DNA of 29,250 nt from a virus: positions 1-29,250 of the IMG/VR virus record IMGVR_UViG_3300042154_003041. One strand, 5' to 3'. The notes beneath the pieces were generated by a model. That model was not told the origin of the DNA. It did not search any database and saw only the letters and a program-made list of their open reading frames with translations. Below, one piece after another: positions 1,004-19,200 of the stretch (within the stretch, counting starts at the first letter, position 1; each line of letters opens with the position of its first letter). Position numbers and translations under genes: made by a program.

Positions 1004-1040
1004 GGGTGGAATTGCAAGGTTGAGGTTGTGGGCTTGTAAG

Positions 1041-3302
1041 TCAAGACAGGACGCAGTTGCCGGCCATGCTGTCGTAGGTCCATCCATTCCAATTAGGCGG
1101 ACGATAAGCACCATGGTTGAGCTCAGCACCTTCTTCGTTGGTGGCGACAGGGCCGGTCGGAATGTCCAACCACTTCTTATCCTTACCGCCGCGAGCAGCG
1201 CATGATGTGATGACCTTGCCGAGAAGGAGATCATCCACGAGGTGCTGGAACTCGCCTGGACCAATCTGACGGAGGACAGGCGGCAGCTCGTTGCGTCGGC
1301 GATAGAGGCCTGACTTGGCGTTCTTGCCTTCGATGGAATAGGGGTGGCCTTCGTGGGCCGCACGCTCGATCGCAAGGGACAGCCAAGCATGGCGTTCGCC
1401 GATGTTCACTGTGGAGAAGCCGTCGTGCTGGGTGACGTCGATGAGCAGGCCTGAGGCGGTTCGCAGGAGGGTCTTCTCTCCGTCGAACATCTCCGGGTTG
1501 TTGGCTTTGACGACCGCCATCTTCCACAGGACGCCACGCTTAGGCGGCAGGCCCATGGTAGGCAGGCGGCGGTCATAGTCAGCACAGTGCCAGATGCCGA
1601 TGACGGAACGGAAAGCGGCCGGCAAAGCGGACGAGCCACGGATCGAGGCCTTCATGTCCTCGACACCGCGGATAGGCTCCTCGCCCTGCTTGCGGATGTG
1701 GTGGGTCAGCATGAGGGCAGCACCGAGCTCGCCGCAGACCTGAGAGGCCACGCGCACGAACTCGTTGATCACAGTGGCGGAGTTTTCCTCGCCGTGGAGC
1801 GTGCTATTGAGCGTGTCCACGATGACGAGGGTAAGGTCGGGCAGTCGCTTGAGCAGGGCAAAGAACTCGGCCCATCGGCGGGAAGGCTTGGCCTCGCCTG
1901 TCTTCGGGTCAGTCTCGACGATGGCAAAGGAGCCACCCGAGTTGATGGTCGGCAGGATGATGAGCTTATCACCGGCCTTCTCTCGACGCTTCTCGGCGTC
2001 AATGTCATGGAGGCGGATGTGCAGCTCGTCCTTGTCATCTTCGGTGGTCAGGATGACGACGGTTCCGCCCTTGAGGATCTTACCGCCGCACCACTCGTGC
2101 TCATCCCCTTCGGTGTGAGAGGCGATCTTGATGGCGAGGTCCAGACAGAGGAAGGTCTTACCAGCTCCGCCTTCGGCGACCATGAGCTGATGCTTGCCGG
2201 CGAGGATCAGGCGGTCCACGAGGAACTGACGCTTGGGCTTCTCGGTCATGGACCAGCGGTGCGCTGCCCAGATTTCGAGGCCTTCTCCGTCGGCGACCAT
2301 GGGCTTCATGGGCTCAGGGAAGGGGCCGTGGTTGAGAATGTCTCGGTTCATGACCGCATGCCACTCGCGTTCAGCACGCTGGAGGGGCCAAGGCGGGACC
2401 ATGTTGGCGTCCATCCATCCGAGGACAGCCTGGAACGCATCATCAAGGGACATGTCCCCACGGCGGGCGACATGTAGGTAATGGCCGCATACGCGGGTGA
2501 ACTGCGACCAGCGGTTCTTCTCATCGTCGGAACCCTCGAACACCTTTTCAGTCAGATCGAGGCTGGCCTTCTCGGGCTTAAACAGACCTTCGGCCGGAGC
2601 TGAGGCCTCAGTTCCGTCATGGTTCTTAGCCTGAGAGATGCGGTCCTTGAGCAGCTTCACGCCATAGACCTGGGCATTACCCATGTCGCAGGCGATGGTT
2701 ACAGGGCTCTTGATGCCGCCTTTGCCGTGAACGGAGCCGGCGATGCGGACAGGTTGGTGAGCTCGGCCGAATGGGTTGCCTTCGACGCCAAGGCCGAACT
2801 GCATATCTCCGCCGGCCTTGCGGGCGAGGTCATCACGAAGGCGGACGATCTCGGCGACGTCGGAGCAAGGGTCGTTGAGGGTCCAATACAGGTGGCGCTT
2901 AGAGACGCCATCTATCAGGCCACCAGACATGACGACTGCGGTGGGCTCGCCGATGGTCTTGGCAAGGAAGGCGTGCTTGGCCTCAATGTCTCCGGCGTCA
3001 AGGTCCACGACGACGGAACGAAACTCGCGCACATTCTCAGAAGTGCCTCGGTCGGTGGACAGGATCGCGGGGACGATGAAGCTCGCCCGGCCATGCTCAG
3101 ACCAGCGTTCGACATGGCGGACGACCTCATCCGACACCTTGATACCGGAAGACAGGTCGATGAACTTGTCTTCACGGAACGTGCCTTCTCCGTCAGTCCC
3201 CTTCTCGCCGATACCTCGGACGCAGACGAAACCAGACGACGGAAGGTTGCCGAAGATGACCTTCAGGTGAAGGGCAACGGCCTCTTTGCTGATCAGGCTC
3301 AA
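1041..3302 (-). CDS. Bifunctional RepB-like primase / RepA-like helicase, 753 aa
   Basis: This probably makes primers and unwinds DNA at the phage replication fork. Residues 1-200 resemble the RepB/archaeo-eukaryotic primase type: an Asp-x-Asp metal site (VVVDLDAGD, D100 and D102), then SGG at 126-128 and KRHLYW at 135-140, and a basic HQPVRIAGSVHGKGG stretch near 182-196. Residues about 360-620 are a RecA-fold ATPase of the RepA/AAA_25 type: Walker A EGGAGKT at 377-383, an acidic TTEDD near 419-423, Walker B LVIVDT with D496, and LTHH at 532-535. A helical tail follows. The start is TTG, overlapping the upstream stop as TTGA. It is backed by an AAGGAAG site 8 bases upstream and by the absence of any early ATG. 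It is coupled to the double-HTH gene. No polymerase gene is nearby in the window. Confidence 0.85.
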   Translation of the reverse strand: MSLISKEAVALHLKVIFGNLPSSGFVCVRGIGEKGTDGEGTFREDKFIDLSSGIKVSDEVVRHVERWSEHGRASFIVPAILSTDRGTSENVREFRSVVVDLDAGDIEAKHAFLAKTIGEPTAVVMSGGLIDGVSKRHLYWTLNDPCSDVAEIVRLRDDLARKAGGDMQFGLGVEGNPFGRAHQPVRIAGSVHGKGGIKSPVTIACDMGNAQVYGVKLLKDRISQAKNHDGTEASAPAEGLFKPEKASLDLTEKVFEGSDDEKNRWSQFTRVCGHYLHVARRGDMSLDDAFQAVLGWMDANMVPPWPLQRAEREWHAVMNRDILNHGPFPEPMKPMVADGEGLEIWAAHRWSMTEKPKRQFLVDRLILAGKHQLMVAEGGAGKTFLCLDLAIKIASHTEGDEHEWCGGKILKGGTVVILTTEDDKDELHIRLHDIDAEKRREKAGDKLIILPTINSGGSFAIVETDPKTGEAKPSRRWAEFFALLKRLPDLTLVIVDTLNSTLHGEENSATVINEFVRVASQVCGELGAALMLTHHIRKQGEEPIRGVEDMKASIRGSSALPAAFRSVIGIWHCADYDRRLPTMGLPPKRGVLWKMAVVKANNPEMFDGEKTLLRTASGLLIDVTQHDGFSTVNIGERHAWLSLAIERAAHEGHPYSIEGKNAKSGLYRRRNELPPVLRQIGPGEFQHLVDDLLLGKVITSCAARGGKDKKWLDIPTGPVATNEEGAELNHGAYRPPNWNGWTYDSMAGNCVLS

Positions 3303-3685
3303 AGTCGGAACTTCCTTGCAGGGGTAATGTCGTGGTCCTTCATGTATCGGCTAATGGTCCATTCGCCGACGCCAAGGGTGGCAGCTATCTGTGCCTGGCT
3401 TTGCTTCGCATCGACCATGGCGGGGACCTTCTTATCCCAGCCGGTCTTGTCGATGCGGTAGCCCTCGCGCTTACGACGCTTCTTCCAATGGACGCCGAGG
3501 ATGCGGATCCAATTACGCAGGGAAGACTCAGACCAGCCCATCCAATCGGCCGCCTGAGGGACAGTCAAGCCCCTGCGGTTGGCCTTGTGGATGAACGGCA
3601 GCATCGACTTGATGCGGATCATCTTGGAATACGTCATCTCGGTATTCCGATACTTCATCTTGAAGACAGGCTTTCGGTGAGGCAT
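3299..3685 (-). CDS. Small double helix-turn-helix DNA-binding protein, 128 aa
   Basis: This is a likely sequence-specific DNA-binding protein. Two helix-turn-helix-like units are visible: residues about 41-65 (TVPQAADWMGWSESSLRNWI) and about 95-120 (QSQAQIAATLGVGEWTISRY). A very basic linker (KKRRKREGYR) joins them. The frame is open upstream to 3769, but that part overlaps the preceding gene and looks like shadow sequence. The ATG at 3685 sits 1 base after the preceding stop and is chosen. Its stop overlaps the primase-helicase TTG start, so the two proteins are probably made together. It may mark the origin, load the primase-helicase or regulate the replication genes; the sequence cannot decide between these. 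Confidence 0.72.
   Translation of the reverse strand: MPHRKPVFKMKYRNTEMTYSKMIRIKSMLPFIHKANRRGLTVPQAADWMGWSESSLRNWIRILGVHWKKRRKREGYRIDKTGWDKKVPAMVDAKQSQAQIAATLGVGEWTISRYMKDHDITPARKFRL
3311..3317 (-). promoter_or_regulatory. Shine-Dalgarno site supporting the TTG start of the primase-helicase
   Basis: Read on the minus strand this is AAGGAAG, 8 bases before the TTG at 3302. It lies inside the 3' end of the HTH gene. Together with the TTGA stop/start overlap it decides the start of the primase-helicase. Confidence 0.65.
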
Positions 3686-3686
3686 G

Positions 3687-4061
3687 TCAGGTGATGAAGC
3701 GGATGAACAGAGGGGTGCGGGGGCCGACATAGGCTCCGGTGACATTGAAGGACATGTGCTCGATTGCATCTTCTTCGGTCATTTCGTCACGGACTTGGAG
3801 GATCCTGACGCACTCATCCCAGTCATAAACGACGACAGGTTCGCAAGTTTCAGTGACACCCACGATAGCAGCCTCGAAGCCATCGGCGCATAGCATTTCA
3901 TCTCCTTCGCCGAGATTGTCGGCGAACTCGGCAACGGCTTCGCGGAGGTGCTTGCCGCGGGTTTCGATTTCATTGACTTCGGGGTTCGGGACGGTTTTAC
4001 GAGCCGGCTCTTTTCCCTTTTTGGTCTTTTTCTCATTTAGTTTGTTGGGCCTTTTAGCCAC
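3687..4061 (-). CDS. Conserved-looking phage hypothetical protein, 124 aa (GTG start)
   Basis: The product is 124 residues. It has a Lys-rich disordered N-terminus (about 1-27) followed by a compact acidic domain (about 35-124) containing DEMLCADGFEAAIVGV and ending in GAYVGPRTPLFIRF. That ending looks like a small globular phage family of unknown function, but I cannot name it. The start codon is GTG at 4061, which overlaps the upstream nuclease gene by 25 bases; the next Met is deep inside the domain. No Shine-Dalgarno sequence is visible. It lies between the nuclease and the HTH gene, inside the DNA metabolism operon. Confidence 0.65.
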   Translation of the reverse strand: MAKRPNKLNEKKTKKGKEPARKTVPNPEVNEIETRGKHLREAVAEFADNLGEGDEMLCADGFEAAIVGVTETCEPVVVYDWDECVRILQVRDEMTEEDAIEHMSFNVTGAYVGPRTPLFIRFIT

Positions 4062-4831
4062 GTCGGTAGGGGTTGGTTATTGGTTTGCTGCTGAGGTTTT
4101 TCCCAGCATCTCTTAGAGTAGTTACAGAAGCGGCAGCGGAAGTCCGTCTCATCGGTGGTAGAGACGCGCGCCATCTCCTCGGGTGCGGCGGTCTTGACGA
4201 TGGAAACGATCCTGTCGATTTGCCCCTGTGCGAACACAGGGTCGAAAGGGATAAACTCGGCGTTAAGCTCGCCGGTATTCCTGTTCAAAGTCGTGAACAT
4301 GCAACCGTTAAAGAGCTCCATGTAAGCCATGTAGACTTGTGCCTGGACGTAGTAGACGAAGTTGGCCTTCTTGATGCCGTCATCTCCGGCCTTCTTCCAA
4401 TTCGAGGCGTTAAGGGCCTTATTTTCCCATAGGACAGGGTAGTTCATGCCTTCTAAGGCAGGGCCAGAGACGATCGCTCCGTCGATATGGCCACGCAGGC
4501 GGCCATCCATCTCATAGAAGCCGAACTGCTTGCCATCGGCCTTTTCCGTGATCAGGTCGAAGCCGGCGAGCTTGACATACTTGGCGACGCGGGCCTCGCC
4601 GTCGTGGCCCATGTCAAAGATGCGCAGGGTCTTGCCCTCGAAGCCGGTCCCATCGTCCTCGGGCACGCCATGGAAGATGTAGGCCAGCTGGCGATTGCAC
4701 TCTTTGCCCCACAGGGAGGCTCCGAGGTAGTTGCGCTTAGGCTGGGCCTTGTTGGCTGCGATCATGGCGTCGTCGATATGCTTGACGACTGCTTCAGAGA
4801 ACAGGTTTTTGGTTTCGGGTTTGAGGATCAT
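4037..4831 (-). CDS. PD-(D/E)XK nuclease with probable Fe-S cluster (Cas4/RecB-type), 264 aa
   Basis: This is a likely DNA exonuclease or endonuclease for recombination or end processing. The PD-(D/E)XK core is readable: GHIDG with D117, then LWENKAL with E136 and K138, then YYVQAQVYM (residues 160-168), which fits the conserved Q/Y helix motif. Four cysteines have the Cas4/AddB arrangement: C45 near the N-terminus (GKECNRQLAY) and C233, C236 and C242 in FRCRFCNYSKRCW. In those families such a set holds a 4Fe-4S cluster; the cluster here is inferred. The C-terminus is a Gln/Pro-rich tail. The ATG overlaps the helicase stop (ATGA), so nuclease and helicase are probably translated together and may act as a pair, as helicase-nuclease systems do. 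Confidence 0.82.
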   Translation of the reverse strand: MILKPETKNLFSEAVVKHIDDAMIAANKAQPKRNYLGASLWGKECNRQLAYIFHGVPEDDGTGFEGKTLRIFDMGHDGEARVAKYVKLAGFDLITEKADGKQFGFYEMDGRLRGHIDGAIVSGPALEGMNYPVLWENKALNASNWKKAGDDGIKKANFVYYVQAQVYMAYMELFNGCMFTTLNRNTGELNAEFIPFDPVFAQGQIDRIVSIVKTAAPEEMARVSTTDETDFRCRFCNYSKRCWEKPQQQTNNQPLPTWLKGPTN

Positions 4832-6501
4832 TTTTTCTTGAGCTTATGGAAGTCTTGGACGCCCCACATGATGCGTTGTTCGTTGAACTTCCAAGTCATA
4901 AGGCACGAGGCCAGATACTTAGTTAGGCCGAACACGACGCGACCACCGAGGTCGAGGTATTGAAGCTGCTTGGGGGTGGCGGGTTCTTGGAGCCAGCGCT
5001 TAGTCTTCAGGCAGGCCTCCTTGTCGCCATGCTGGCGGAGGAAGTCATCGGCCGAAGACATTACGGCGATCTTGGCGTCGATGCCGCCGGCTGCGATCAT
5101 GCGCACGCCGGTCATGTGCTCGGCTTTCCCGAAGGCGAACCAGATCTCGCCATGCTGGAAGATGCAGGCCCATGCGGTAATGCCGTTGGCCATCTGGACG
5201 ACGTTATCGAACATGGCCTGCCACTTGTAGGGCGACATGTTCAGGAGATTGATCTCCGTCATTACGAAGGCCTTGAGCTCCTCCTTCTCGGCCTTCTCGG
5301 CCTTTTCCACCTCTGTTCCGCAGATTGGGCAGACCATGCAACCGAGTGGAAGGATGGTATGGCACTCCTTGCACTCCTTTACCGGAGCGTCCTTGGGCTC
5401 GCTTTCGTCCTCTTTCTTGATGCGCGGGTCTACCTCAATGGAGCCGTGAGCTCGCAGGGAATACCCAAAGTCGAGCACGATGCAGTCGGATTTAACTACA
5501 CCAGGATAACGGTCAGGGTCCACCTTGCGCAGCCCTCGGCCGATCATCTGGATCATAGTGCCCTTGAAGGAACAGGGCCGCAGCAGGATGACGCAGGAAA
5601 CGTCCTGACAATCCCAGCCCTCAGTGAGAACGGCGACATTGACCATCACGAGGAACTTGCTCTTGTCGAAGTCCTCGATGACCTGCCGGCGGTCCGAGTC
5701 GGCCATCTCGCCATTGACCTCGTTCGCGGGGATGCCTGCGGCACAGAAGGCAGCCATGACGTCCTTGGCGTGGGCCACAGTGGAGCAGAAGATGACGGTC
5801 TTGCGGCCGTCGGCGTTCTTGCGCCACTCCTCGATAACCCGGTCATTCACCACCTGGCTATTCATGATCTTGCCCGCCTCCTCCATGTCGAAGTCGGCGG
5901 TCGAGGTCTTGGTCTTGTTGAGAGCTTCCTCAAGGTCGCAGTCGATGACGAAGAAGCGGGGTTTTACGAGGAAGCCCGAGTTGATGAGCTCCCCGAGCTC
6001 GATCATGTCGGCGACGTTATTGAACGTCTTTACGATGACCTTCTTATCCCCACGGTGCGGGGTGGCGGTCACGCCGAAGATCTTGACGTTAGGATTGAGC
6101 GCCTTGGCCCGATTGATGACCGTGGCGTATGAGTTTGCGGCCACATGGTGAGCCTCGTCGATGATGACGAGATCCATGGCCGGCATAGAGTCGAGGTTGT
6201 CAGGCCTGCAAAGGGTCTGAACCATCGAAAAAGTGACACCCTCAGACCACCGCTTACGCGCTGCCGTGTATAGGTCCGTCTGGACCTCCGGCGCAACCCG
6301 CTGGAAGGTGGCCCTATTCTGGGCCACCAGCTCGTCGCGGTGCTGGATGATGAGGGTGCGCCCGCCCATGGCTTTAGCCACAGCTGACAGCATGACGGTT
6401 TTGCCTGCACCGGTAGGCGCGATGCCAAGCGTGTTGCCATATTCCTTAAGTCGTTCGATACAGCTATCGACGAACTCAACCTGCCGAGGTCTTAGTTGCA
6501 T
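4828..6501 (-). CDS. SF2 DEAH-box helicase with C-terminal zinc ribbon, 557 aa
   Basis: This is an ATP-dependent helicase or translocase of superfamily 2, of the type found in many phages beside recombination genes. It has a Q-like motif QLRPRQ at 2-7, motif I APTGAGKT at 28-35, motif II DEAH at 115-118, motif III TAT at 145-147, TEGWD in the second RecA domain near 293-297, and motif VI QMIGRGLRK at 318-326. A zinc ribbon follows, with C377/C380 and C391/C394 as likely ligands. The last 150 residues are unassigned. The frame allows an earlier ATG at 6540. The ATG at 6501 is preferred because it directly precedes the conserved LRPRQ, though neither start has a Shine-Dalgarno sequence. Its stop overlaps the nuclease start. 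Confidence 0.88.
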   Translation of the reverse strand: MQLRPRQVEFVDSCIERLKEYGNTLGIAPTGAGKTVMLSAVAKAMGGRTLIIQHRDELVAQNRATFQRVAPEVQTDLYTAARKRWSEGVTFSMVQTLCRPDNLDSMPAMDLVIIDEAHHVAANSYATVINRAKALNPNVKIFGVTATPHRGDKKVIVKTFNNVADMIELGELINSGFLVKPRFFVIDCDLEEALNKTKTSTADFDMEEAGKIMNSQVVNDRVIEEWRKNADGRKTVIFCSTVAHAKDVMAAFCAAGIPANEVNGEMADSDRRQVIEDFDKSKFLVMVNVAVLTEGWDCQDVSCVILLRPCSFKGTMIQMIGRGLRKVDPDRYPGVVKSDCIVLDFGYSLRAHGSIEVDPRIKKEDESEPKDAPVKECKECHTILPLGCMVCPICGTEVEKAEKAEKEELKAFVMTEINLLNMSPYKWQAMFDNVVQMANGITAWACIFQHGEIWFAFGKAEHMTGVRMIAAGGIDAKIAVMSSADDFLRQHGDKEACLKTKRWLQEPATPKQLQYLDLGGRVVFGLTKYLASCLMTWKFNEQRIMWGVQDFHKLKKK

Positions 6502-6662
6502 AGGAAATGGGGGGCGTCCGCAGAGGCCATGAGCAAGCATGCGGATACGAGGACCAACTTCGGATTGGAACCGACGCCAATACGTTCCGATCCTCTCGCC
6601 CTTCCACTGTTAAAGATCCTACCGACGACAATGGACGCCATGTATGTATTGTCAAATGCCAT
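6492..6662 (-). CDS. Possible small gene, 56 aa, between SSB-like and helicase genes
   Basis: An ATG-initiated frame begins 15 bases after the SSB-like stop. It runs 56 codons and ends in TAA, overlapping the helicase ATG at 6501 by 10 bases. It would fill an otherwise odd gap (6502-6677) in a densely packed operon. The product is basic in the middle and apolar near residues 36-47 (LVLVSACLLMASA), with no recognised family. There is no Shine-Dalgarno sequence. If the helicase instead starts at 6540, the overlap grows to 49 bases. This is a tentative call. Confidence 0.3.
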   Translation of the reverse strand: MAFDNTYMASIVVGRIFNSGRARGSERIGVGSNPKLVLVSACLLMASADAPHFLCN

Positions 6663-6677
6663 CGGTAGGAGCTCGGA

Positions 6678-7301
6678 TTAGAACGGATTGTTAGTCTGGC
6701 CGGGCTTCTGGAGCCAAGCAGGGCTGCTGGACGCGGGCTTGGAAGGGCCCTGCGGGTTCATGATCTTGGGCTGAGCGAACACCTGGGCGGGGGCCTGCTG
6801 GGCGGGAGCGCCACCGTGGAGCTTCTGCCAGCCGGGGTAGCCATTAGACTCAGGGTTCGGGGTCAGGAAGTCCTGAACCTCGTTCTTGTCCTCGTAGCCA
6901 TCCTTGCCCTTGGCGATCTTGATCTTGATAGCCACGGTCTTGCCGTCGAGCAGCGCGAGCATCTCGCCGAAGCTTGCTCCGTTGTATTTGGCGTAGGACG
7001 CCTCATCGCCGATGGTGAACAGGCCGGAGGCCTCGAACAGTCGGGTCAGGGACGTGATGCCCATCTTCTTGCCGCCCTCGGAGTTGTTCTCGTCGGCCGG
7101 GTTCATGATGACGGTCCAGACCTTGCGGCCCGAGAACTCGCCGGCGTTGATCGTCAGCTCGACGCTGCCGTACTCGCCGTTGGTGCGCTGGGAGCGCTTG
7201 AGGCCCTTGACCGTGACGACCGCGGAGGCGAGCGTACCGTTGGGGATGAGCTGGAACGAGCTTTCGCCGATACCAGACTTGCTGTTGAACATGTTGTGCA
7301 T
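6678..7301 (-). CDS. SSB-like single-stranded DNA-binding protein (DUF669-like), 207 aa
   Basis: This probably binds single-stranded DNA and supports the neighbouring annealing ATPase. Residues about 15-165 look like an OB-fold phage SSB/DUF669 domain: a VVTVKGLKRS strand, a YGSVELTINAGEFSGRKVW core (45-62) and repeated short strands. Residues about 170-203 are a Pro/Gln/Ala-rich flexible tail, and the protein ends in NNPF. That layout mimics bacterial SSB (fold, linker, short tip) but the acidic residues of the usual DDDIPF tip are absent. The frame is open upstream to 7382, inside the ATPase gene; the ATG at 7301 is chosen (ATG at 7292 also possible). The leader is A/C-rich with no Shine-Dalgarno sequence. 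Confidence 0.68.
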   Translation of the reverse strand: MHNMFNSKSGIGESSFQLIPNGTLASAVVTVKGLKRSQRTNGEYGSVELTINAGEFSGRKVWTVIMNPADENNSEGGKKMGITSLTRLFEASGLFTIGDEASYAKYNGASFGEMLALLDGKTVAIKIKIAKGKDGYEDKNEVQDFLTPNPESNGYPGWQKLHGGAPAQQAPAQVFAQPKIMNPQGPSKPASSSPAWLQKPGQTNNPF

Positions 7302-7323
7302 GATGTGTTTTTTTGGGTTGGGT

Positions 7324-8190
7324 TTAGGACTGCTTTTCGGGCAGAGTGGTGATGATATCCGCGTCGAGGCGCTTGCCTTCACGGATCTTCTTAATGAGCT
7401 GGCCGAGGTGCGGCGGCTCGATCATATCGAGGCGACCAGAACGGTCCTTGGCAGGGTAGTTCCAAGGGTTCTGCTGGTGACAGACGAGGGCACGATACTG
7501 GGTCTTGCCGTCGTCGGCGGTCATGTTCTGGAGAGTGATAACCTGGTCGAACACGCCCGGCAGCTCACGGCCGGTCTTGGAGCCTTCAATCTGCGGCTCC
7601 CAAGTGACACGGCGGAGATCGTCCTCATGCTTGTCGAGGATGCCGACGACGATGATGGACTTGTTGCTGTGCTGGAGGTGGGTCAGCCAGCGCATCATTT
7701 CACGGCCGAGAAGGCCATAGGCCCCGCGGGTGTCAGGCTTGCCGGTCTTCTCAGACAGGGCCTCGGGCTGGATCTGGGCCCACTTGAAGCACTCACGAGA
7801 GGCGACAGTGATGGAGTCCACGAAGATCGTGTCGTACTTGTCGAGGTCGATGCCGACGCCGGTAAAGAGCTCAACGACCTGACGATAGACGGCAGCCGAA
7901 TAGGGGCCGGTGGCGTCAGACGGATCAGCCCCGCCAACGAACAGAGCGAGAGCCCTGGACAACTCCCACGGATGGCAGCCCAAGGCGGTGGCGGCCTTGC
8001 GCATGTCGAGAACGTCGCCAGCCCAGTCCTGAATAGCCAGCGTGCCGGCTTCGAGGTCCACGAACAGGGTGCGCTGGGGGTCCAGCGTGCGGGCGAGCGT
8101 CGTCTTGCCGACCCCGGAAGGGCCGAACAGGGCGATGTTGATCTTAGGGACCGCTTTCAGGCGGTCATTTGCAGTGATGATTTTGAACAT
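7324..8190 (-). CDS. Sak4-like RecA-fold ATPase (AAA_24 type), 288 aa
   Basis: This is a likely phage recombination ATPase of the Sak4 type, which promotes single-strand annealing together with an SSB. Walker A is GPSGVGKTT at 23-31, an acidic strand LFVDLEAGT lies at 42-50, and Walker B is YDTIFVDS with D125. A conserved-looking KTGRELPGVFDQV stretch suits the family's C-terminal half. The length (288) is near the family's usual 200-300 residues. The ATG at 8190 directly precedes the first strand. The leader is rich in C and A (CCACCCAAAACCGAT) and has no Shine-Dalgarno sequence. It lies immediately upstream of the SSB-like gene, the pairing expected for Sak4 systems. Alternative: a generic AAA_24 NTP-binding phage protein. 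Confidence 0.8.
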   Translation of the reverse strand: MFKIITANDRLKAVPKINIALFGPSGVGKTTLARTLDPQRTLFVDLEAGTLAIQDWAGDVLDMRKAATALGCHPWELSRALALFVGGADPSDATGPYSAAVYRQVVELFTGVGIDLDKYDTIFVDSITVASRECFKWAQIQPEALSEKTGKPDTRGAYGLLGREMMRWLTHLQHSNKSIIVVGILDKHEDDLRRVTWEPQIEGSKTGRELPGVFDQVITLQNMTADDGKTQYRALVCHQQNPWNYPAKDRSGRLDMIEPPHLGQLIKKIREGKRLDADIITTLPEKQS

Positions 8191-8310
8191 ATCGGTTTTG
8201 GGTGGAAAGTGGAGAGGGGGGAGGACAACAAGCCCTCACACGTCGTCGCTGATGAATATCCCGATCAAGGGATGGTTTAGCGATTACGCCCGAAGTGGCC
8301 CCTCAAAGGA

Positions 8311-8745
8311 TTACTCGGCGGTGAAGACGATCTTGGGGGCGGAGAACTCAACAGTGCGGGCCGGCTTGAGCAGCTCCATCAGCTTGTCCTCGGTGATAGC
8401 CTTGAAGGTGCGCTCAGGGACGGAGAACTCGATCTTAAAGACCTTCTCGATCTTCTCCCACGGCATCGTGGCTGCCACGGCCTGAAGCTTCTTGGAGTCC
8501 CACTTGACCTTGGGCTTCATGGCGAAGGTCATGCGAACGCCGTCGAACTCGCGGGTCATCTCGCCGTCGGTCTTGCCGGCGGCTTCGAGCTCGCGGATGA
8601 AGCGGTCGTGGTAGCGATTGAGGATCTCGGCGTTGATCGCATCCAGAATGTCCTTCTGGTAAGCGATGGTTTGGCCAATATCCACGGCCATATCCTTGAG
8701 CTCGTGGAGGGGCTTGTTGCTGAACGTGATGGGTAGGTTGCTCAT
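8311..8745 (-). CDS. Hypothetical protein of the recombination module, 144 aa
   Basis: The product is 144 residues. An N-terminal helical part (about 10-60) contains a paired-helix pattern (LHELKDMAVDIGQTIAYQKD), and a mixed C-terminal part contains MKPKVKWDSKKL and ends in strands. No catalytic motif, signal or membrane segment is visible and I cannot name the family. It is the first gene of the DNA metabolism block, after an 86-base gap that separates it from the membrane-protein genes. It is 120 bases upstream of the Sak4-like gene. Proteins of this size and position are common at the head of Sak4/SSB clusters, so an accessory recombination role is plausible but inferred. Confidence 0.65.
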   Translation of the reverse strand: MSNLPITFSNKPLHELKDMAVDIGQTIAYQKDILDAINAEILNRYHDRFIRELEAAGKTDGEMTREFDGVRMTFAMKPKVKWDSKKLQAVAATMPWEKIEKVFKIEFSVPERTFKAITEDKLMELLKPARTVEFSAPKIVFTAE

Positions 8746-8831
8746 GTCGGTCCAAGCACGATGCCTTACCCTGAATGTGGGTCAAGAGCTACTTGCATCT
8801 TTTTTTGTGTGTGCATGCAACCCACTGGTGC

Positions 8832-9104
8832 TCAACGTGATTTTGCAGCACGCCAGACCAGTCCACCTATCACCATAAGTGACCCAACCCCCACCGCCAG
8901 GGCTATATCGCGAGTGGCCATAAGGGCCAAAGTTGCGGAACTCAGCTGGTTTTCGGTGTTTTTGTCATCAAACTTCAAGCCCTGGTCAGTGATCAGACCG
9001 ACCATGGCGTGACTATCCTGAAAGGCATCGAGCGTGCGCTGCACGAGGAACGCCGTAGCTATGGAACAGAGGATGGAGATAACAGCGGTGACGCCGATCG
9101 CCAT
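8832..9104 (-). CDS. Small two-TM membrane protein, 90 aa
   Basis: The product is 90 residues with two membrane segments: residues about 3-20 (IGVTAVISILCSIATAFL) and about 66-84 (IALAVGVGSLMVIGGLVW). A polar loop joins them and a short basic tail (RAAKSR) follows. The frame extends upstream to 9221, but that would overlap the holin-like gene by over 100 bases with a Lys/Pro-rich stretch. The ATG at 9104, 13 bases after the holin-like stop, is preferred. Its place at the end of a set of membrane proteins suggests a lysis accessory such as a second holin or antiholin. No family is recognised. Confidence 0.6.
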   Translation of the reverse strand: MAIGVTAVISILCSIATAFLVQRTLDAFQDSHAMVGLITDQGLKFDDKNTENQLSSATLALMATRDIALAVGVGSLMVIGGLVWRAAKSR

Positions 9105-9117
9105 GATCAGGTTTAGC

Positions 9118-9456
9118 TCAACGTCGCTTTCCTTTGGCCGCTTTGACTTGGGCTTCGCCTTTCGCACGAACGTATTGGAGTACGAAATCACAAACTTCGG
9201 GCCCTGCGTAAGAGAGCGCACCGACGGCTGCGAATTGTAGTCCGGTTGATTGTATGTATTCTCTAACTACCATCGACGAGAAGAAGCCGACGATACAGGC
9301 TATGCCAATGCGACGCGCCACATACCCAAACGACTTCTTATCTTGATCCGCAAGGAGTCTGGCAGTCATGGCCCCGGCTCCGAGGGCGGCCGCAGTAGCG
9401 CCGTCCTTGACGAGCTGGTTTACCTGTTCTGGGTCACTTGGGGGAGGAGGGCTCAT
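9118..9456 (-). CDS. Holin-like membrane protein, 112 aa
   Basis: This is probably a small inner-membrane pore-forming protein of the lysis cassette. A polar Pro-rich N-terminus is followed by three apolar segments: about 19-35 (ATAAALGAGAMTARLL), about 50-68 (IGIACIVGFFSSMVVREYI) and about 73-93 (FAAVGALSYAGPEVCDFVL). The C-terminus is basic and Lys-rich (KAAKGKRR), as in many holins. The RRIG pair before the second segment and the G-x-x-S-Y-x-G-x-E pattern recall LydA/phage_holin_3 type proteins; this is a judgement from memory. Its ATG lies inside the 3' end of the spanin-like gene (23-base overlap). Confidence 0.55.
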   Translation of the reverse strand: MSPPPPSDPEQVNQLVKDGATAAALGAGAMTARLLADQDKKSFGYVARRIGIACIVGFFSSMVVREYIQSTGLQFAAVGALSYAGPEVCDFVLQYVRAKGEAQVKAAKGKRR

Positions 9457-10150
9457 TGATTTTGTCTCTTATTTTATCCCAAGCGAACCACAGTATTAGT
9501 CCCAGCAGTATCGAAATAAACCCAATTAGAATGGGCATGAAATAGACGTTCTCGTAAAGCATCGGCAGCGCACCGATGCCCGCACCGATCGCAAGCGCTA
9601 CGCCAGCTCTGACGTATTGGCCGGCGAGTCCCATGCCAAGGGCGGCGAGCAAACAGATGCCAGCGCAGCCGCCGATGATCAGCTTGTAGATGTTGCGAGT
9701 GCCTTCTTCTTCGACGCGCTTCACTTCGCCTTCGAGGAACGTGATGCGAGAGTTGGCCTTCTTCAGCAGCTCGGCGTTGGCCTTCGACTGATCGCTGGCG
9801 ACTTTCCAATCTGCCTCGAACTTGGCGAGAAACTTCTTCGCAAAGGCAGACTGATCAGCGTACGCTTTTGCGTCCGCACGCTCCGCACGCTCCAATGCGA
9901 ACTTAACGTCTTCCGGGCTCGGCTTGGGGAGGTATTCGAGGGCGAGCTTAGCTTCAGCCCTGACTACCGGCTCCTTGTCTGCGTTCTTTTCTATCGCAAC
10001 GAGAGCGCCTGCTACTCGGCCATCCGCCTTCTCCTGCTCCTTCTCGATCGCCTTGAACGGCTCAACCGATGGGACGGCGGCGACAGGCTCAGGGCTGCTG
10101 GACTTGCATCCAGCGAGCAGGGCCAAGACCAGCACCAGGCATAGTCTCAT
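9434..10150 (-). CDS. Lipoprotein with coiled coil and C-terminal TM segments; unimolecular-spanin-like, 238 aa
   Basis: The N-terminus is a classic lipoprotein signal: two charged or polar residues, an apolar run, then lipobox LLAGC with C15 as the lipidated residue. Residues about 33-150 are Glu/Lys/Ala-rich and helical, probably a coiled coil. Three apolar segments follow at about 153-176, 178-197 and 203-223, then a charged tail. A lipid anchor at one end and membrane helices at the other, joined by a periplasmic helix, is the plan of u-spanins such as that of phage T1, which link and fuse inner and outer membranes at lysis. This one is longer and has three C-terminal segments instead of one. 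Start and upstream stop overlap as ATGA. The function is inferred from architecture and neighbours. Confidence 0.6.
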   Translation of the reverse strand: MRLCLVLVLALLAGCKSSSPEPVAAVPSVEPFKAIEKEQEKADGRVAGALVAIEKNADKEPVVRAEAKLALEYLPKPSPEDVKFALERAERADAKAYADQSAFAKKFLAKFEADWKVASDQSKANAELLKKANSRITFLEGEVKRVEEEGTRNIYKLIIGGCAGICLLAALGMGLAGQYVRAGVALAIGAGIGALPMLYENVYFMPILIGFISILLGLILWFAWDKIRDKINEPSSPK

Positions 10151-10281
10151 TTTATGATCTTGGCCGCGTCGCGGACCTTAGCTTCGGCTTCCTGAAGCTT
10201 CTTCGCGTTATTGCGATAGGCCAGGGCGCCGACGGCGACGCCGGAGAGGAAGGAAAGGACGAGGAATACGAGGGTGGTCAT
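10147..10281 (-). CDS. Small single-TM protein, 44 aa
   Basis: A 45-codon frame starts with ATG 5 bases after the stop of the giant gene and ends in a TGA that overlaps the next start as ATGA, so it fits the operon exactly. Residues 3-21 (TLVFLVLSFLSGVAVGALA) form a membrane segment, and the rest is a charged amphipathic helix with Lys and Glu. No ribosome binding site is clear. It could be a pinholin, a holin partner or a small membrane accessory; it matches no family I can name. Confidence 0.6.
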   Translation of the reverse strand: MTTLVFLVLSFLSGVAVGALAYRNNAKKLQEAEAKVRDAAKIIK

Positions 10282-10286
10282 GGGTG

Positions 10287-13200
10287 TTATTTAAGTCTGA
10301 ATACATCAGGCGTCAATCCTCCTGATTTTTTGCCGTCCTGAGGCACGATTGCGTTAGTGAAAGCAGGGGCGTTAGTGGCCTGCGTTGCTACCGTTCCGAG
10401 GGCCGGATTTATGGCGGAAGCGCCGGCCACTATGCCGCCCTTAAGCAGCGGTACGGAGGCCTTGGCTATGCTCTTTTTGGCAGCCGACATATCCTTGCCT
10501 TCGGCAGCGGACTCAAGGACCGACTTGCCGGCTCGGCCGACATTGACGGCCATCTGGCCGACAGGACCACCGACAGCCTGATCTCGCTTAATGGACTTAA
10601 CCATCTGCTCGAACTTGGGGCCGAGGAGGCCTGCGTAGGAGGTGGCATTGACCCACTTAACAACCTCAGGGTCCTTGGCGCGCTGCTTGGAAGACTCGCT
10701 CGGGTAGAGCAGGTCCTTGAGCTCAAGGAGGCCGCGGTAGGCGAGGATCGAGAGGAGGCCGCCGGCCACAGGGCCCATCATGCGGATACGGTCATAGGCG
10801 GTGTAGTTCTTGCCTTCAGGGCTGAAGGCAAGGGACTGCTTGGCCATGTCGTACATTCGGCTGTTCACTTCGGCTGCGTAGGAGTAGCTGAAATTCATGA
10901 GCTGAAGGAAGGCCTTACCGAGAGGATTGTCTTGGAACTCGGGCTTGTGGGCTCGGTTGGATCTGACGCTGGACTGCATCGAGAAGCGAACCATCGCCTC
11001 CTGGTGCAGCCTGGCCATCTCGTCCTGGCCGAGCATAAGCGCCATGGCTTCGGAGTCCTTGGCATCTTGGAGCTTCTTAGACCAGTCGGCGAACTCTGCC
11101 TGCTTTTCCGGGGCGATACCGAGCTCAGAGAGCTGATCCGCAACGGACTGCTTGGCGTTCATGCCGAGTTTAGCCGTCCAGTGGTCGCCGCGAGCCATGG
11201 CAGCAAGCCGGTTAATGTAGCTGAAGCCGATGGCGTGCGAGGCCTGCTGCTTGGCGGTTTCCGTGGCATCCATAAGGTTGGCCTTATAGACGCGATTGGT
11301 CAGCCAGCGGAAGCGAGGGTCGGCGTACTCGGCGTCGAGTTCCATGGAGTGAGTGGTCATCCATGCGTCCTCGATGGAGTTGTGGATAGTTCCAATTTCA
11401 TGGCCATACTGACTCCAGAACGTCTCTCCCATCTTGGCTCTGAGGGTCGGGCTGAGGCCCGGAAGCTCACGCAGGAAGCGGGTCCAGGTTTCGGCGTAGG
11501 CCCTGAGAATATCAATCGGATTGCCAGTGCGCATACCGATCGTGACAGGCTCGACGAGGTTGTTCAGGAAGCCACGACCCATCGCCGAAGCGGCGGTCGC
11601 AAGCGTAACCGTATCAACGAACGTCTGGCCGGCCTTGCCGCGGGGCGGGATGCCGATACCGGCAGCACCGCGGGTAAGCTCACGCATTTCGCTGATCACC
11701 TCGTAGGGCACGCCATCCTTCTCCATCTGGGTAGACAGCTTTTTCCACTTTTCGCCTTCGTTACCGAAGCGCCGGACGATCTCAGCACGCTTGACGCCGC
11801 TGGTGATGTATCGGCCGACGACACGGAATGGGTCGTTTACCTGCCACTTACGCATGATATCCTGAGACGCGCGGCTGAACTTACGTTTCATCGAGGGGTT
11901 CTCGGCCCCACTCTTGTTGGCCATGCCGAATATGGAGTCAAACTCCTCGGCCCCAGCGCCTCGAACATGCGAGTTGTAGAGGCCGAGGGCCTTCTGCTCG
12001 GTGAGCTCGTCCATGATTTCTTCGAGCTTATCCGGGTCGTTGTCGGCCATCTCCTCATATTCCTTCTTCGTAAGACCAAGCTCACGGCGAAGGGTGTCAG
12101 GGTCCATTTCGCCGAGCTGGATTTCGTATGCCTTCTTGGCGTCCTTGATGAAGTCCTTGCGATTGTCGCCAATGCGAGGGGAGTCGTAGACGGCCGGGTA
12201 GTAGTCGGCGACAGTGCCGATAGACTCGCCTGCGGCGGTGCGGTAGTCGTGGATCTCAGCGAGCAGCGCCTTGAGGCCAGCTGCGGACTCACCGATAGCA
12301 CCACTGGTGATGTTCTTTCGGCCAGTGATCATGTCATTGAGGGCCTGATACACTTCTTCGCGCTGCTGTTTGGCAGTGCCCTGGTCGGTGTCCTTAAAGC
12401 CGCCGAGCATACCTCGGAGGGGCTCCATTATCTTGTTCAGGCGTGTGTGGTACTTAGACCTTGCGGTGCTTATGGCCGTCGGAAGGTCACGCTCGTATGC
12501 GTTCGACTTAGTTCCCGGCCGGCTATGGATCATGTTAGCGATGGCCTTGACGGCATCACTGTAAGGGTGGCGCTTGGCGTTCTGGTGAGCCTTGCCCGAC
12601 ATGCCAGAGAAGAAGCGGCCGCTTACGATATCCCAAGCGGACCGGGTGACGGACTCGCCGGAGCGAGGGTTCTTGAACACCTCAGGGTCTTCGGACTGAT
12701 CAGTGGATGCGTCCCTGACGGACTTGAACACCTGACCGTTTCCGGAGTTAGAAACATCCCCCTTTGGCAGAGAGTTCTGGGCGGTCACTTCGGCCGAAGG
12801 GTCGGCCATGCCCGGAAGGGCTATGCGCTTGTAGACTCGAGCACCCTTAAGGCGTGCGTCAGGGCCCTTGTTCGTAAAGTGGCCTTCTTCCATGACCGAC
12901 TGCCATTCACGCTGGTTAAAGCTCGGGTCCTGAGAGGCGAGTCGTTCAAACTCGGCTTCGGTGAGCTTGTTCTTGTTGGCTACGCCCATGGCGTCTTGAA
13001 GGCGAACCTCGCCGGATACGCGCATATCAAGCTCGCTCTGCTTGGGCTCACCCTTCGACTGGAATATGTTGCTGGAAGAAGTATTGACGTCGTTTCCTCC
13101 AAAGGCCGCTTTGATCCTGCGTGGGTCTGCGAGAACGTAGGACTCCTGGCCGCCTTTCTTTCCTCCCTGCGCGGTACGCAGGTCAGAGTCGCTATACTTG

Positions 13201-16200
13201 ATGGCATCAACGCCGTACTTGTTGAAAAGAGAGTGGATGGACTGGTGGCTAAACACCTGCCATATGCTCGTCTGGAACTTATTAAGGTGATCATCTCTGG
13301 CTTCGTCAAAGGCTTCGATCAGGCCTTCTCTTAGCTCGGTCAAGTCGATGTCTTTTCCTTCATTTATGCGCTGAACTTCACTGATGATTTTATTGATGAA
13401 CTCGTCTTCTCGGGCAGCGATATGCTCGTTGGCGGAAAGTCCGTCGTTATCCAGCTTGCGCATCTCCTGTATCTTAGCCCTGGAGTCTATGGAGTGTCCG
13501 ATATCCGATATATCAACGACGTTCTTAACATTGATGTATACCTGGGCAACAGCCCCAGAAGTGCCGACCTTAGGCAGCTTCTTGTTAAAGTCCTGAGCGT
13601 ATTGGACCGCGTAATCAGGGTCGGCCGCAATATGGAAAAGGCCATCCGTGGACGAGTTTGCGTCCAGCGTCTCATAGGCGTTGTTCTGACCACGGTACAG
13701 GGCATGCTTAACAATGGAGTCCTTGACGAACTCCTCGATCTGTCTGGCACGCTCTTTGGTCATCTTGTTGCGGCCAAGAATGTTCGCAACGGTCGTGCCG
13801 TCTTCTTCCGGACGGACAAACTGTTCGCCGATTGGATACAGCGAGTTGGCGTCATTGTCCGGCCCCTTAACTATGCGCTTGGCCTTAAGCTCACGGTCCT
13901 TTCTGTTGAAAGTAGTGCCACCACCCCACTGGCGGTCCGAACCTATGCCGGTAATGTCAGCGCTTCCTTCTTCATCCGGGTTGTAGCGCCCCTTGGCAAA
14001 GTTAGACAGGATCTTGTTGGCGATCTCCTTGCCGAACATCTTGCGGAAGTTCAGCTTAATGTCCTGCCAAAGACCGGCGAGCTTCTCCTTCCAGTTGCGG
14101 GATCGACCAAGGTAAACAGGGTCTGAGTTGAGCTCGCGCATGACGTTATCCTTGAACTCCTCGGCGAAGTATTCGTTCGGATTGGTCAGGCGGTAGGTTT
14201 CGTCAGTAAGCTTAAGTCGATAGATAGACTCATTCGGCTTATAGCCCTCCTTCTTGAGCTCATCGGCGTCGAGCTTGACGATCTGCGAGGTCGGATCTTG
14301 GAGGTTTGCGTTGGCTATCTGCTGTGCGGTAAAGCGCTTCTTGGCCCAATCCTTGCGGTCGGTTGCGCTGAACAGGTTTTCAAGGCCCTTATTTCGCTTA
14401 AGGAACTCAGCTCGCTTGGAGTGTAGCTCGGCTATGACCGCCTGTCGGTCGGCTTCCGGAAGGAAGCGAGCGATGTGGTGGGCGATTTCGTGGGCGGCAG
14501 TCTCCTCGAACTTGCCGTTTCTGATGGCGTCCTTGAAGATCGTAATGATGCGTTCAACGGTCTGGTATTGACCATACTCGCCGGGGCGAGAGCCAGCACC
14601 GACCTTCATCTTGACGCCCTCAAAGAACTGAGCGCCGATCTTGTTCATGATGCGGGTGACGCCTTCGATCTCCTTAGGAGTCAGGTCGCCACGCAGGCGC
14701 ATCTCGTCGGTAACGCGAGACACGATGCCAGAGTAGCCCTTGCGGGACTCAGGGTCGCCTGCTCGGTTTTTGGCGTTCTGCGCCTGGCGTCGTTCAAGCT
14801 CGCGCTTGGCGGCATCAGGGGAAAGGTCGCGGCGGGAGAAGTTAAACCTCGGATCCTCTGACGAGAAGCCTCCAAAGTTAGAGGCAGCCTTTACGCTCGT
14901 GTTCGGCTTATCTCCTCCAAGCTTCGGGTGTCCGTCGTTTGAGACAACAATCGTAGGGCTTTCAGTGCTAACGGTGGAGTCGTTGAAAACAACGGAGTTA
15001 TACTTTACGGAGGCGCTTTCAAGGAACCACCTGGACATTTGATGCTGGATGCCAGCCTGCGACCTTCCATCTATGTCAAACAGGCGACCATCTTCGAGTG
15101 CTGAAACAAAGCTATCAAGACTGTCGAATGACTCGCTCGCCACATCGTTGTAAAAATCAATCAGATCCTTGCCTATACGGCCCTGCTTTGTGCTTGTTCC
15201 AGAGGACTCAAATGCCTGTATTGCTGCGTTAGGGCTCGTAAGTACGGCCGGCAAACTGCTCCTAACATAATACATGTCAGGCGCATCCTTGGCATACATG
15301 CCAGCCGCGTCCCTATCGGCGACAAAGTATGTAAGAGAGCCTGGCTTGAACTGATCAAACTCACGACCCTCGCTCTTGGTGCCATGGAATACCGTGGTCA
15401 CGAAGCCATCAACAAGACCATTAAAGTCTCTTAGCTTTTCAACGCCCCTGACGAGCTTAAGCATGGTCGATCTGGGCTTGAAACCATACTGGTTCCCCTT
15501 GGTCCATTCGTTAAACTTCTTCGTATTAGGGTAGGAAAATAGCTTCTTTGGCGCATTGTCTCTGGCATCGTCACGGCGAGAGAATGGGTCGTCAGGATTA
15601 GCCTGATCGGCCTCGTAGAGTCTCTCGATGATACCGGAGGCCTTCATATCGACAGGCGCTGCCGCACCAAGAACCCCGCCCTTAGGAGTGAGCATTTCGC
15701 CTCTGCCGGCAGCAACAATGGCCTGAACGAGATCGTCGGTGTTGAAGTTGGCAGGATCAAACTGGGTCCAGCCAAGCTCGCTAAGCGCAGTGGCAAGATC
15801 AGAAAGCTGGCCCTCTGCCCTGTCCTTCATGTCCTTTCGGTATGTCGCGTCAGTCTTTGCTCGATTTGCATCAACCTTGCCCATTCCGACAGGGTTTCTC
15901 ATGAGGGCTATGACCTGGCCCTCCGAGAGTTGCTCCCGCAGCGTATTTAGGCTATCTGCTCCGAACTCAGCAGGTAGAGTCGGGATGCCGTACTTGTTTC
16001 CATGCTCTGCGATGAGGTTCCTTATATCGGCAAGAAGGTCGCCCTTCTGAGAAGGGGTATCGCCGGCATCGGTGTCCTCAATTCCAGACTTTTCCTGAGT
16101 TTCAAACCTTGCGGCGAGCTCGGCTTCAACGGCAGCGGTTATGGCCGGATCCACATCTTCCGATCCGAACTTGGCAACGAACTCCTCAAGGGCAGCGTTG

Positions 16201-19200
16201 GATATGATCTCCATATCCTCCGCGGTGGGCTCGTACTTGCCAGAAAGCAGCTTGTTCTCGACCTCGAACTGCTCGATCTTAGCCTCGGCATCACGGCGCT
16301 TGGCATCCCATCCTTCGCCGCGGCTCATGTTCTTGATGATGCTGGAGAGCTGCTGGCGGGCCTCGGTTATGGAGGCCGGCTCATTGTCAGAAACAGGGGT
16401 CAGCACGCTTTCCGCGGTAGCAGCGGAGGTCTTTCCGAGCTTCTCGTAGCTTGCGATGCGATCCATGATATCCCTGACCCTTGGCATCTCGGCGAAATCG
16501 AGGCCGCTGGAGCGACCCGGACGGAAGGTGTTTCCGTTAAGCAGTTCCCTGAGCTTGCGGCGCTGGGTTTCGAGACGGCCGTTGTCGGTCGGCTTGTCCT
16601 TGGTGGCAGCAAGCAGTGCTTCCATCTTATCGACGTTAGCCTGGCGCAGCTCACGGACCTTATCGTTCTGCGAGTCAGCCAGAAGGTCGCGCATGTCCTG
16701 TATGCCGCGCTGGAAGCCCTTGACGCCCTTCAGATCAGTGCGCGGAGCTTCAGCGGAAGCTTCACCGCCGGCGATCTCCATGAGGCGGGCCTTGAGCGTC
16801 TTGTAGTCCACTCCGTCTGCGAGCTTATAGGTCGTGGTATAGCTGCCATTGGCCGTGTTCACCTTGCTGCCCTTGAAGGCTTCAACAAGCTTCTCTCTGA
16901 CGAGCTGTTGCATGAGGCGAGAGACGTTCTTTATGCCGACATTCATCTCCTCTGCTATCTCGGCAGTGGGCCTTAGCATATTGGTCTTTCCCCTTCCCTT
17001 CAGAACGCTGTCGTGGTCAAGGATGCCCTTGGCAACCTCATCGTTTTCGACGCGCTCGCGGAATGAAGCAGGGTCAAAGCTTGGCTGTGGCTCTGATTTC
17101 TTCTTAACGCCTTTTTCTTTACCAAATCCAGCCTTTACAGGATCTACGAATATCCGACTTGGAGACGCATACCTGGCTCCTTTGACACCAATTTTCTTAA
17201 GCTTGAAGATTTCCTCAGAACCATCAGCGGGGGTTGAAATGCCAACAACATCGTAGTCTCGGAACTCCTCATGAACAATGGCGTCCTCATTTGGGAAGTT
17301 TCTCAACCTTGCAGGCTCAGCATCACCCTCCTTAGGCTTAACGCTCTCGTTATACTCGGCGATCGTCTTGCGCAGGGCTTCCTGCTGATCGGGGTTACGT
17401 CCGGCCTTTTCCAGCTTAGAAAGCTGATCTCTGGCGGCTACGATATGGGCAGGCTCAGCTCCGGTAGAGAAATCTCCGGTCGTGTCCTCGGTGCGCTCAA
17501 CAGGCGGCGGGGCCGCAGTCTCGCCGGCGAGGCTGAAGTCTTCAGAGGAGTCGAAAAGTTCGCCCTTCTGGACGCCGCCTCCGAGCTGCTGGGGCTTGGA
17601 GGGCTTCTCGGCCTCCTTCGCCTTGATGATGGCATCTACACGATCGTATTCTTCCTGTATCTTTTTCTTCTTATCTGCCGAGTAGTTAAGCCCAAGGTTT
17701 CGATTAAGAAGCTCCCTGTAATAGTAAGCATCATTCGGGTAATCTCCATTTCCAAGTCCGAAGTCGAGGTCCATGGACTTAGGAAGCTTTCTGTCTACCG
17801 GTATCGTTTCAGCTCCGCCGTGTGCAGACTCTCTATATTCACGAGCAAGCTCCTCGTCGCTTAATTCCGTTGAAGGCGTTTCGTCCTCAATAGGTTCGCT
17901 CGGCTTCCAGTGGCGAGTGTCCACTTCATTGTTAAACTCATCCATCGTTTCCCACCTTCCATAAAGAGGGAAAAGGTGATCCTCAGGAAGACCTGCGGCC
18001 TCCTTTATGGCATATAGTGCTGCGCTATGACCCTTAGGGTCGTCAAAATCAAACGGAACATACCGAGAGTCATAGGCTGTTTCATGCGCGGCACGCTCGA
18101 TGCTCTTACCAGGCTCCTTCATTCTTTCTGCTATCGCATCCTTCATCTTTTTCACGAGGGCTGGCTTATTCTTTGACTGAGCCGGACCTTTTGAGTCGCT
18201 GGCCACAAAATCCATGGCTTCCTCCATTGTCTTGAAGTATTGATCCTCAGAAGCGCGCTTACTCTTAATGTGGCCATTCTCGTCTATGGATTTAACGCGA
18301 TGGACATAGTAAAATCCATCATCAGGCCCTGCCGAATAACCTATTGAGTGCTTCTTATCAGGACTCAGGAAAGTCATCTGGCTTATCACGTCAAAGCTAC
18401 CGGCATTACTGCTTCCAGCAGGAGCTCTTACAGGCGTGTATCCTTTCGCGGTAAAGGCTTCAAACTGGAGGTCAGCGTCGCTCTTGTAGTCAGGGTTTGT
18501 GCTGTATTCGAGATCCCGCTTGTCTCGCTTTAGTGACTTTTTGAGCTTTTCGAGCTGCTTCTGAACTGACTTCTTTTTCGCTCCATCGCCATTTTCGATC
18601 TTAACTATCTGCTCCTCTGCCGACTTTATCTTCTTTTCGAGCTGAGATATGGTCTTTTCAGATCCACGCTTCCATCCAGCTTTAGCCTCTGCCAGCTTTT
18701 CTTGGTAGATCTCCTGGTCGCTCTTGGCGAGGTTTCGCTGGTATTGCGCCTTGTCATTCTCTGCGTCGCTTTCCGCAAAAGCAGCTTCGCGCTCGGCTAC
18801 ATCCTCCGGATCTTCATCAGGATCTGGTTCTTCTTCTGCCGGGTCACGGCCTTCCGGTTCAGGCTCTTGAACCTTCTTCTCGTACTTTCCGAACTTAGAC
18901 TCGTAATCAGACTTAGCATCTAAGGCCTCTTGCTCGCGGTCCTTAAGCTCCGCTTCAGCATTGGAACGTCCTGCTTCAGCCCTGGTAACAAAGTCAATGT
19001 CTTCCTTTTTCTTGCTGGATCGTAGCTTTTCAACCTTAGCCCGAACAGAAGCCATCGCATTTTTCCAAGAATTAAGCTCTTCTTCTGCGCGCTCCACCTT
19101 GCGCCTTGCCGTTATCTCTGGAAGATCGGACTTTTTAACAATCGTATCAAGATGCCATGCGGCATCAGCATCGTTATTTACATGAAAAGAGTTACCTTCA

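Follow-up and report, generated by a model that had tools for sequence, protein, structure and literature searches.

The window, that is, the whole stretch of DNA that was analyzed, is the entire virus record IMGVR_UViG_3300042154_003041, 29,250 bases long; it has no terminal repeats and thus is probably a fragment. At positions 9434–10150 of its minus strand (ATG at 10150, stop codon ending at 9434), exactly where the earlier note had placed it, lies a gene for a candidate lipoprotein of 238 amino acids, with a predicted helical periplasmic domain and three C-terminal transmembrane (TM) segments; the surrounding genes encode a Cas4-like exonuclease, a helicase, a Sak4-like annealing protein and a 4,050-aa protein. 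The N-terminus of the lipoprotein, MRLCLVLVLALLAGCKSSS, is a compact lipoprotein signal in which the lipobox L-A-G-C, with the cysteine at position 15 (C15), is preceded by an uncharged LCLVLVLALLAG stretch. The signal peptide II with the lipobox (residues 1–15) occupies positions 10106–10150 (minus strand; C15 codon at 10106–10108) and is followed by the periplasmic domain (residues 16–156; 9683–10105, minus strand), predicted to consist of a linker and then helices, with residues 32–75 being the best conserved part. The three C-terminal TM segments claimed in the earlier note coincide with the Kyte-Doolittle maxima at residues 157–175 (TM1; 9626–9682), 180–198 (TM2; 9557–9613) and 202–220 (TM3; 9491–9547), all on the minus strand; in the structural model, TM1 runs on from the periplasmic helix, and TM2 and TM3 are recovered by hydropathy and model alike.

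The 4,050-aa protein (10287–22439, minus strand) shows a weak Pfam match, below the cut-off, to the ADP-ribosyltransferase ART-PolyVal at about residues 2345–2434, and towards the C-terminus, it is similar to virion proteins from KPP25-like phages of Pseudomonas. For the cultured phages Mae-Yong1326-1 of Microcystis and KPP25 of Pseudomonas, which encode distant relatives of this giant protein, the annotation near the match shows no lipoprotein or holin.

The lipoprotein gene is subject to purifying selection, with dN/dS of 0.15/1.21 and 0.17/0.99 in comparisons with the two closest relatives among those kept, far below 1. Exactly one ORF with a lipobox and at least two later TM segments was found in the window and in each of six near-complete relatives (contigs of 42.7–47.7 kb; one of them, G008, is terminated by direct repeats of 127 bp), and 30 shuffled genomes yielded no such ORF; together with the selection estimates, this leads us to reject a random ORF. 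Database searches with the protein returned little: Pfam yielded DUF6251 at E 0.3 and nothing else, a PDB fold search gave no match at E ≤ 0.001, and tblastn with the window protein and one more family member (from L079) produced no match at E ≤ 1 among 50,697 phage records. The one strong database match, obtained with Foldseek (E 8.9e-12; 235 aligned columns, 37% identity), is A0A6J5MZD0 from BFVD. This protein, from an uncultured Caudovirales phage, is uncharacterized, has no assigned function and is probably another member of the family. The family appears to be undescribed, and none of its copies is annotated as a spanin in the libraries searched.

The lipoprotein gene is tightly embedded among genes for small membrane proteins. 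Upstream, a 44-aa ORF with a single TM segment (10147–10281, minus strand) overlaps with its stop codon the start codon of the lipoprotein gene (ATGA), and downstream, a holin-like gene of superfamily III (9118–9456, minus strand; 112 aa) overlaps the end of the lipoprotein gene. The latter matches a PHROG holin family (E 8.5e-4) and, below the cut-off, Pfam Phage_holin_3_3 (E 2e-4), so that the holin-like neighbor proposed earlier is correctly identified at these coordinates. Next comes a two-TM protein (mechanical ORF at 8832–9221, minus strand, with the true start probably at about 9110), which is found in many relatives and is absent from L002. The gene order is the small TM ORF, the lipoprotein, often an HExxH protein, the holin-like protein, often the two-TM protein, PHROG 2480 and Sak4. 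The small HExxH protein, encoded between the lipoprotein and the holin in most relatives (125 records; for example, L116:5644–5886 and L128:903–1169), was not seen in the window, and the two examples tested gave no confident family match.

At the left edge of the contig (1–48, minus strand), the first 16 codons of an SLT-type endolysin with a signal peptide, MRLFLLLMATKLMALD, are preserved; the contig breaks off within the signal peptide, and the rest of the gene is missing. A relative 98.9% identical to window positions 620–8815 (L082) extends into the whole endolysin gene (L082 8366–8956), whose product lies slightly above the Pfam SLT cut-off. SLT-type proteins that begin with a hydrophobic signal occur in 60 sequences of relatives and genomes, some of them duplicated; three examples scored 23.3, 22.2 and 24.3 bits against the Pfam SLT profile (curated cut-off 21.3). 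The phage thus combines an endolysin and a holin-like protein with a single lipoprotein.

A scan with the single sequence yielded one relative at 76%, a scan with a two-sequence alignment the best 80 of 186 confirmed relatives, and a second scan, with the Sak4 neighbor, the best 80 of 113 confirmed loci. The local set comprised 158 records, among them the window but not L001, which merely duplicates it. Homologues of the lipoprotein were detected by iterated profile searching in 131 of the 158 (some records are one contig fetched twice, so that all such counts are of records and not of independent lineages), and in 130 of these 131, a holin-like gene is located on the same strand at most 1 kb downstream. 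By the rule that the lipobox lies 10–35 residues from a start, 123 of the 131 homologues possess one; three more are cut by the contig end, and the remaining five carry TAGC, TTGC, LTGC or LCAC, outside the rule or without a start. The periplasmic part has a median length of 142 residues and is free of cysteine in 122 of the 123. The sole match in a bacterial genome lies in an Opitutae MAG, on a 28-kb contig that also bears homologues of the small TM ORF, the HExxH protein, the holin and the endolysin, and with the same cassette, it is probably a phage contig.

In two mosaic lipoproteins (L033:42–785 and L055:1821–2561; alignment read by eye), the periplasmic domain of one subfamily is fused to the membrane module of another, which suggests that the membrane module is exchanged as a unit. 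Three short forms, two with identical sequences of 142 aa (L128:494–922 and L129:1477–1905) and one of 138 aa (L130:4770–5186), retain the lipobox and the three TM segments, with only 39 residues separating the lipobox cysteine from TM1.

The position of the lipoprotein was also surveyed without recourse to homology to the lipoprotein itself, by inspecting the slot upstream of the holin. Of the 158 records, 10 had no holin match and 20 had the holin too near the end, leaving 128 to be judged. The first count found a lipoprotein in 115 of these slots and missed it in 13, all of which held family members overlooked because the distance limit and the lipobox rule were too tight; the limits were then widened (threonine at position −3 was added and the distance raised, CTG starts being allowed already) and the slots recounted. 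With the widened rule, all 128 readable slots are occupied by a lipoprotein whose C-terminal part contains two or more TM segments, three of them in 122 cases. Thirteen slot proteins fall in branches beyond the reach of the family profile; one such branch aligned with the family alignment in hhalign with a probability of 97.8% (E 1.2e-12, 16% identity), and its structural model (pLDDT 75.4, pTM 0.33) arranges its elements in the same sequence, helix 100–182 continuing into TM1. Judging from these sequences and models, the lipid anchor, the helical domain and the three-helix membrane anchor appear to be retained despite far-reaching sequence drift.

The alignment used for this comparison and for the analyses below consists of 52 rows drawn solely from the 123 lipobox-positive homologues and thinned by identity; the invariance of C15 in it is therefore partly a product of selection, and the unselected evidence for conservation of the lipobox that the earlier note had read from a single sequence is the counts for the 131 homologues and the slots. 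In the same alignment, the mean majority fraction is 0.81 for residues 32–75, 0.64 for the membrane-proximal helix and 0.56–0.61 for the TM segments; this peak of sequence conservation at residues 32–75 suggests that this segment may have a binding role beyond spacing.

AlphaFold2, run with the 52 sequences, predicts helices only, at residues 30–55, 60–73, 79–91 and 94–175 ahead of TM2, the last one continuing into TM1; the periplasmic stretch of 141 residues is predicted to be all-helical. The mean pLDDT of 76.7 combined with the pTM of 0.41 makes the helices believable but not their packing. The long periplasmic helix claimed in the earlier note accordingly has a counterpart in the model, as a prediction of helices throughout. 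A coiled coil is indicated in part at most: heptad periodicity exceeded that of shuffled sequences (p < 0.05) for residues 112–152 in 27 of the 52 members, a modest signal, compared to 4 of the 52 for residues 32–75 and 1 of the 52 for residues 79–120, and being nearly confined to 112–152, it fits a coiled coil in the membrane-near part at most.

All 52 aligned members have a net positive TM1/TM2 loop. The TM2/TM3 loop carries a net negative charge in 47 of them and a net positive one in no member, and the C-terminal tail, with its balanced charges, is uninformative on topology. The positive-inside rule relates loop charge to membrane topology, and under this rule, the loop charges predict a periplasmic N-terminal domain and a cytoplasmic C-terminus. 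This N-out/C-in arrangement, predicted from hydropathy and loop charges across the 52 members, is the topology demanded of a lipoprotein with three C-terminal helices.

A spanin assignment would be undercut by another spanin elsewhere in the genome, and the search for one was conducted in the six near-complete relatives, the window itself being an incomplete genome. A strict six-frame lipobox scan recovered the lipoprotein in five of the six (the one missed was in G001) and no second convincing lipoprotein; its extra hits were an ORF with IACWPG in G001, which by eye resembles the PHROG 308 gene of the window, and a 65-aa frame in G008. A relaxed scan recovered the lipoprotein in all six. It also listed additional short ORFs, between one and four in each relative and three in the window; most of them run antisense, only one, in G001, has TM segments, and we judged them to be chance occurrences. 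The sensitivity of the scans on the lipobox-positive homologues was 118 of 123 (strict) and 123 of 123 (relaxed). On this basis, the possibility that the protein is merely one of several lipoproteins was rejected, and no Rz/Rz1-like lipoprotein, the item whose presence elsewhere the earlier note had singled out as damaging, was detected in these six relatives; C15, the residue named in the other refuting condition, is conserved. Among the PHROG spanin family profiles, the Rz-like matches to the window protein itself start with the signal and reach no further than residue 46 (for one of them, E 0.03 over residues 1–31).

We consider it reasonably probable that the lipoprotein is a unimolecular spanin (u-spanin) of a new build, helical and anchored by three inner membrane helices. 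In the survey of Kongari et al. 2018 (PMC6139136), u-spanins combine a lipobox with a TM domain at the C-terminus, and all 58 lack periplasmic cysteine; the candidate shares all these features, which makes a u-spanin role its most likely function, if by no means an assured one. U-spanins are likewise counted by the presence of a lipobox and a TM segment in PMC12596118. With the T1 gp11 family, as described in PMC6139136, the candidate has in common the lipobox signal, the C-terminal anchor, the lack of periplasmic cysteine and the location of the gene in a lysis cassette. Unlike that family, which is beta-rich with a single TM segment and is likened there to class II fusion proteins (the helical two-component spanins being likened to class I), the candidate is predicted to be all-helical, has about 238 aa and three TM segments, and shows no sequence match. 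No strands appear in either of our two models, and a beta-rich periplasmic domain is a trait of the T1 family that is not required of u-spanins. The resemblance to Rz/Rz1 lies in the combination of a lipoprotein with a helical periplasmic part linking two membranes, the difference being that there is one chain instead of two. The open literature, searched by title and abstract with subscription papers and preprints outside the scope, yielded no u-spanin with several TM segments.

If the protein functions as a u-spanin, signal peptidase II would cleave the precursor, and C15, we infer, would be lipidated and sorted to the outer membrane. The helical domain of about 140 residues is predicted to bridge the periplasm, and the three helices to anchor the protein in the inner membrane with the C-terminal end in the cytoplasm, as the loop charges support. 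After the firing of the adjoining holin and the degradation of the peptidoglycan by the secreted SLT-type endolysin, the tether could, under the published spanin model, collapse or oligomerize, joining both membranes and removing the last barrier of the Gram-negative cell.

The u-spanin plan proposed in the earlier note is thus supported in part, by the retained lipobox, the loop charges, the near-universal association with the holin and the status of sole credible lipoprotein in the six near-complete relatives, whereas the short forms speak against it: their 39-residue spacers are short for the periplasm and fit poorly with a spanin, given that the shortest two-component pair in the survey has 62 periplasmic residues in all (PMC6139136). 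The short forms may have another mode of action; otherwise, the protein would have to do more than span the periplasm. The conservation peak at residues 32–75, away from the membrane-near helix, and the lack of any match to a spanin family profile past the signal region count against the u-spanin as well. The further suggestion of a new spanin class survives as a variant of the u-spanin and not as a proven class.

Several other functions have to be weighed against the u-spanin. The tight linkage to the holin could also be explained if the protein were an inner membrane lipoprotein that regulates the holin, similarly to an antiholin or a trigger, with both the lipid and the helices in the inner membrane and the domain folding back or sensing the periplasm; the short-spacer variants would then need no outer membrane reach, and the strong conservation of the distal segment 32–75 would be accommodated as well. 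Aspartate after the lipobox cysteine is the classical E. coli signal for inner membrane retention, and the residue at this position is serine in 66 homologues, lysine in 35, alanine in 18, threonine in 3 and glycine in 1, so that this signal is absent in all 123. Furthermore, with such a regulator, these phages would be left without a lipoprotein for outer membrane disruption, and on balance, we regard holin regulation as unlikely.

Distinctly less credible is a holin and a spanin combined in one chain that would both permeabilize the inner membrane and link it with the outer membrane. According to PMC9636201, class I holins possess three TM segments in an N-out/C-in orientation, and the candidate has the same number of segments in the same predicted orientation, although topology alone does not make a holin. 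A dual function may be suggested by this topology of the three-helix module, the module swaps and the persistence of the module behind a 39-residue spacer. Phage_holin_3_6 matches were obtained for 17 of the 52 members at E ≤ 0.1, weak on the whole (best E 3.8e-6), and the two that were placed cover the TM region with 16.5 and 18.5 bits (cut-off 28.4). The candidate differs from class I holins in having a lipobox, a 140-residue periplasmic domain and a separate holin-like neighbor, the last of which makes the dual function less likely.

Phages do produce exclusion lipoproteins, and the protein might be one of these, or another envelope lipoprotein, merely parked in the lysis region; such a role is very improbable considering that a lipoprotein of this build precedes the holin in every one of the 128 readable slots, the 16%-identity branch included, and that in L152, a gene of a PHROG endolysin family (E 6e-46) lies directly upstream of the cassette. 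Finally, the ATGA overlap in the window and the presence of a single-TM ORF (about 40–46 aa) directly upstream of the lipoprotein in 89 of the 131 homologue records are reminiscent of an overlapped o-spanin/i-spanin pair with the 44-aa protein as a tiny i-spanin, a possibility that we rejected as hardly tenable, given that in 97 of 98 homologues of the small ORF, the C-terminal flank of the TM segment carries more positive charge than the N-terminal one, which predicts N-out/C-in, the reverse of the N-in/C-out topology of an i-spanin partner and of the Rz/Rz1 arrangement, and that a normal o-spanin lacks TM segments, whereas three are conserved in the candidate.

The product of the small ORF could be a releasin-like or antiholin-like accessory. 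As a presumed cytoplasmic protein tethered to the membrane and encoded in a lysis cassette, it brings to mind the Mu releasin (PMC9239132), but this likeness is only an idea.

Were the lipoprotein a u-spanin, the present pairing of fold and architecture, in which helical spanins are two-component and beta-rich spanins are single-chain, would be broken, and an annotation handle would become available for a large set of uncultured phages. The naturally occurring short-spacer forms and module swaps would then provide ready mutants for finding out how much tether a spanin needs.
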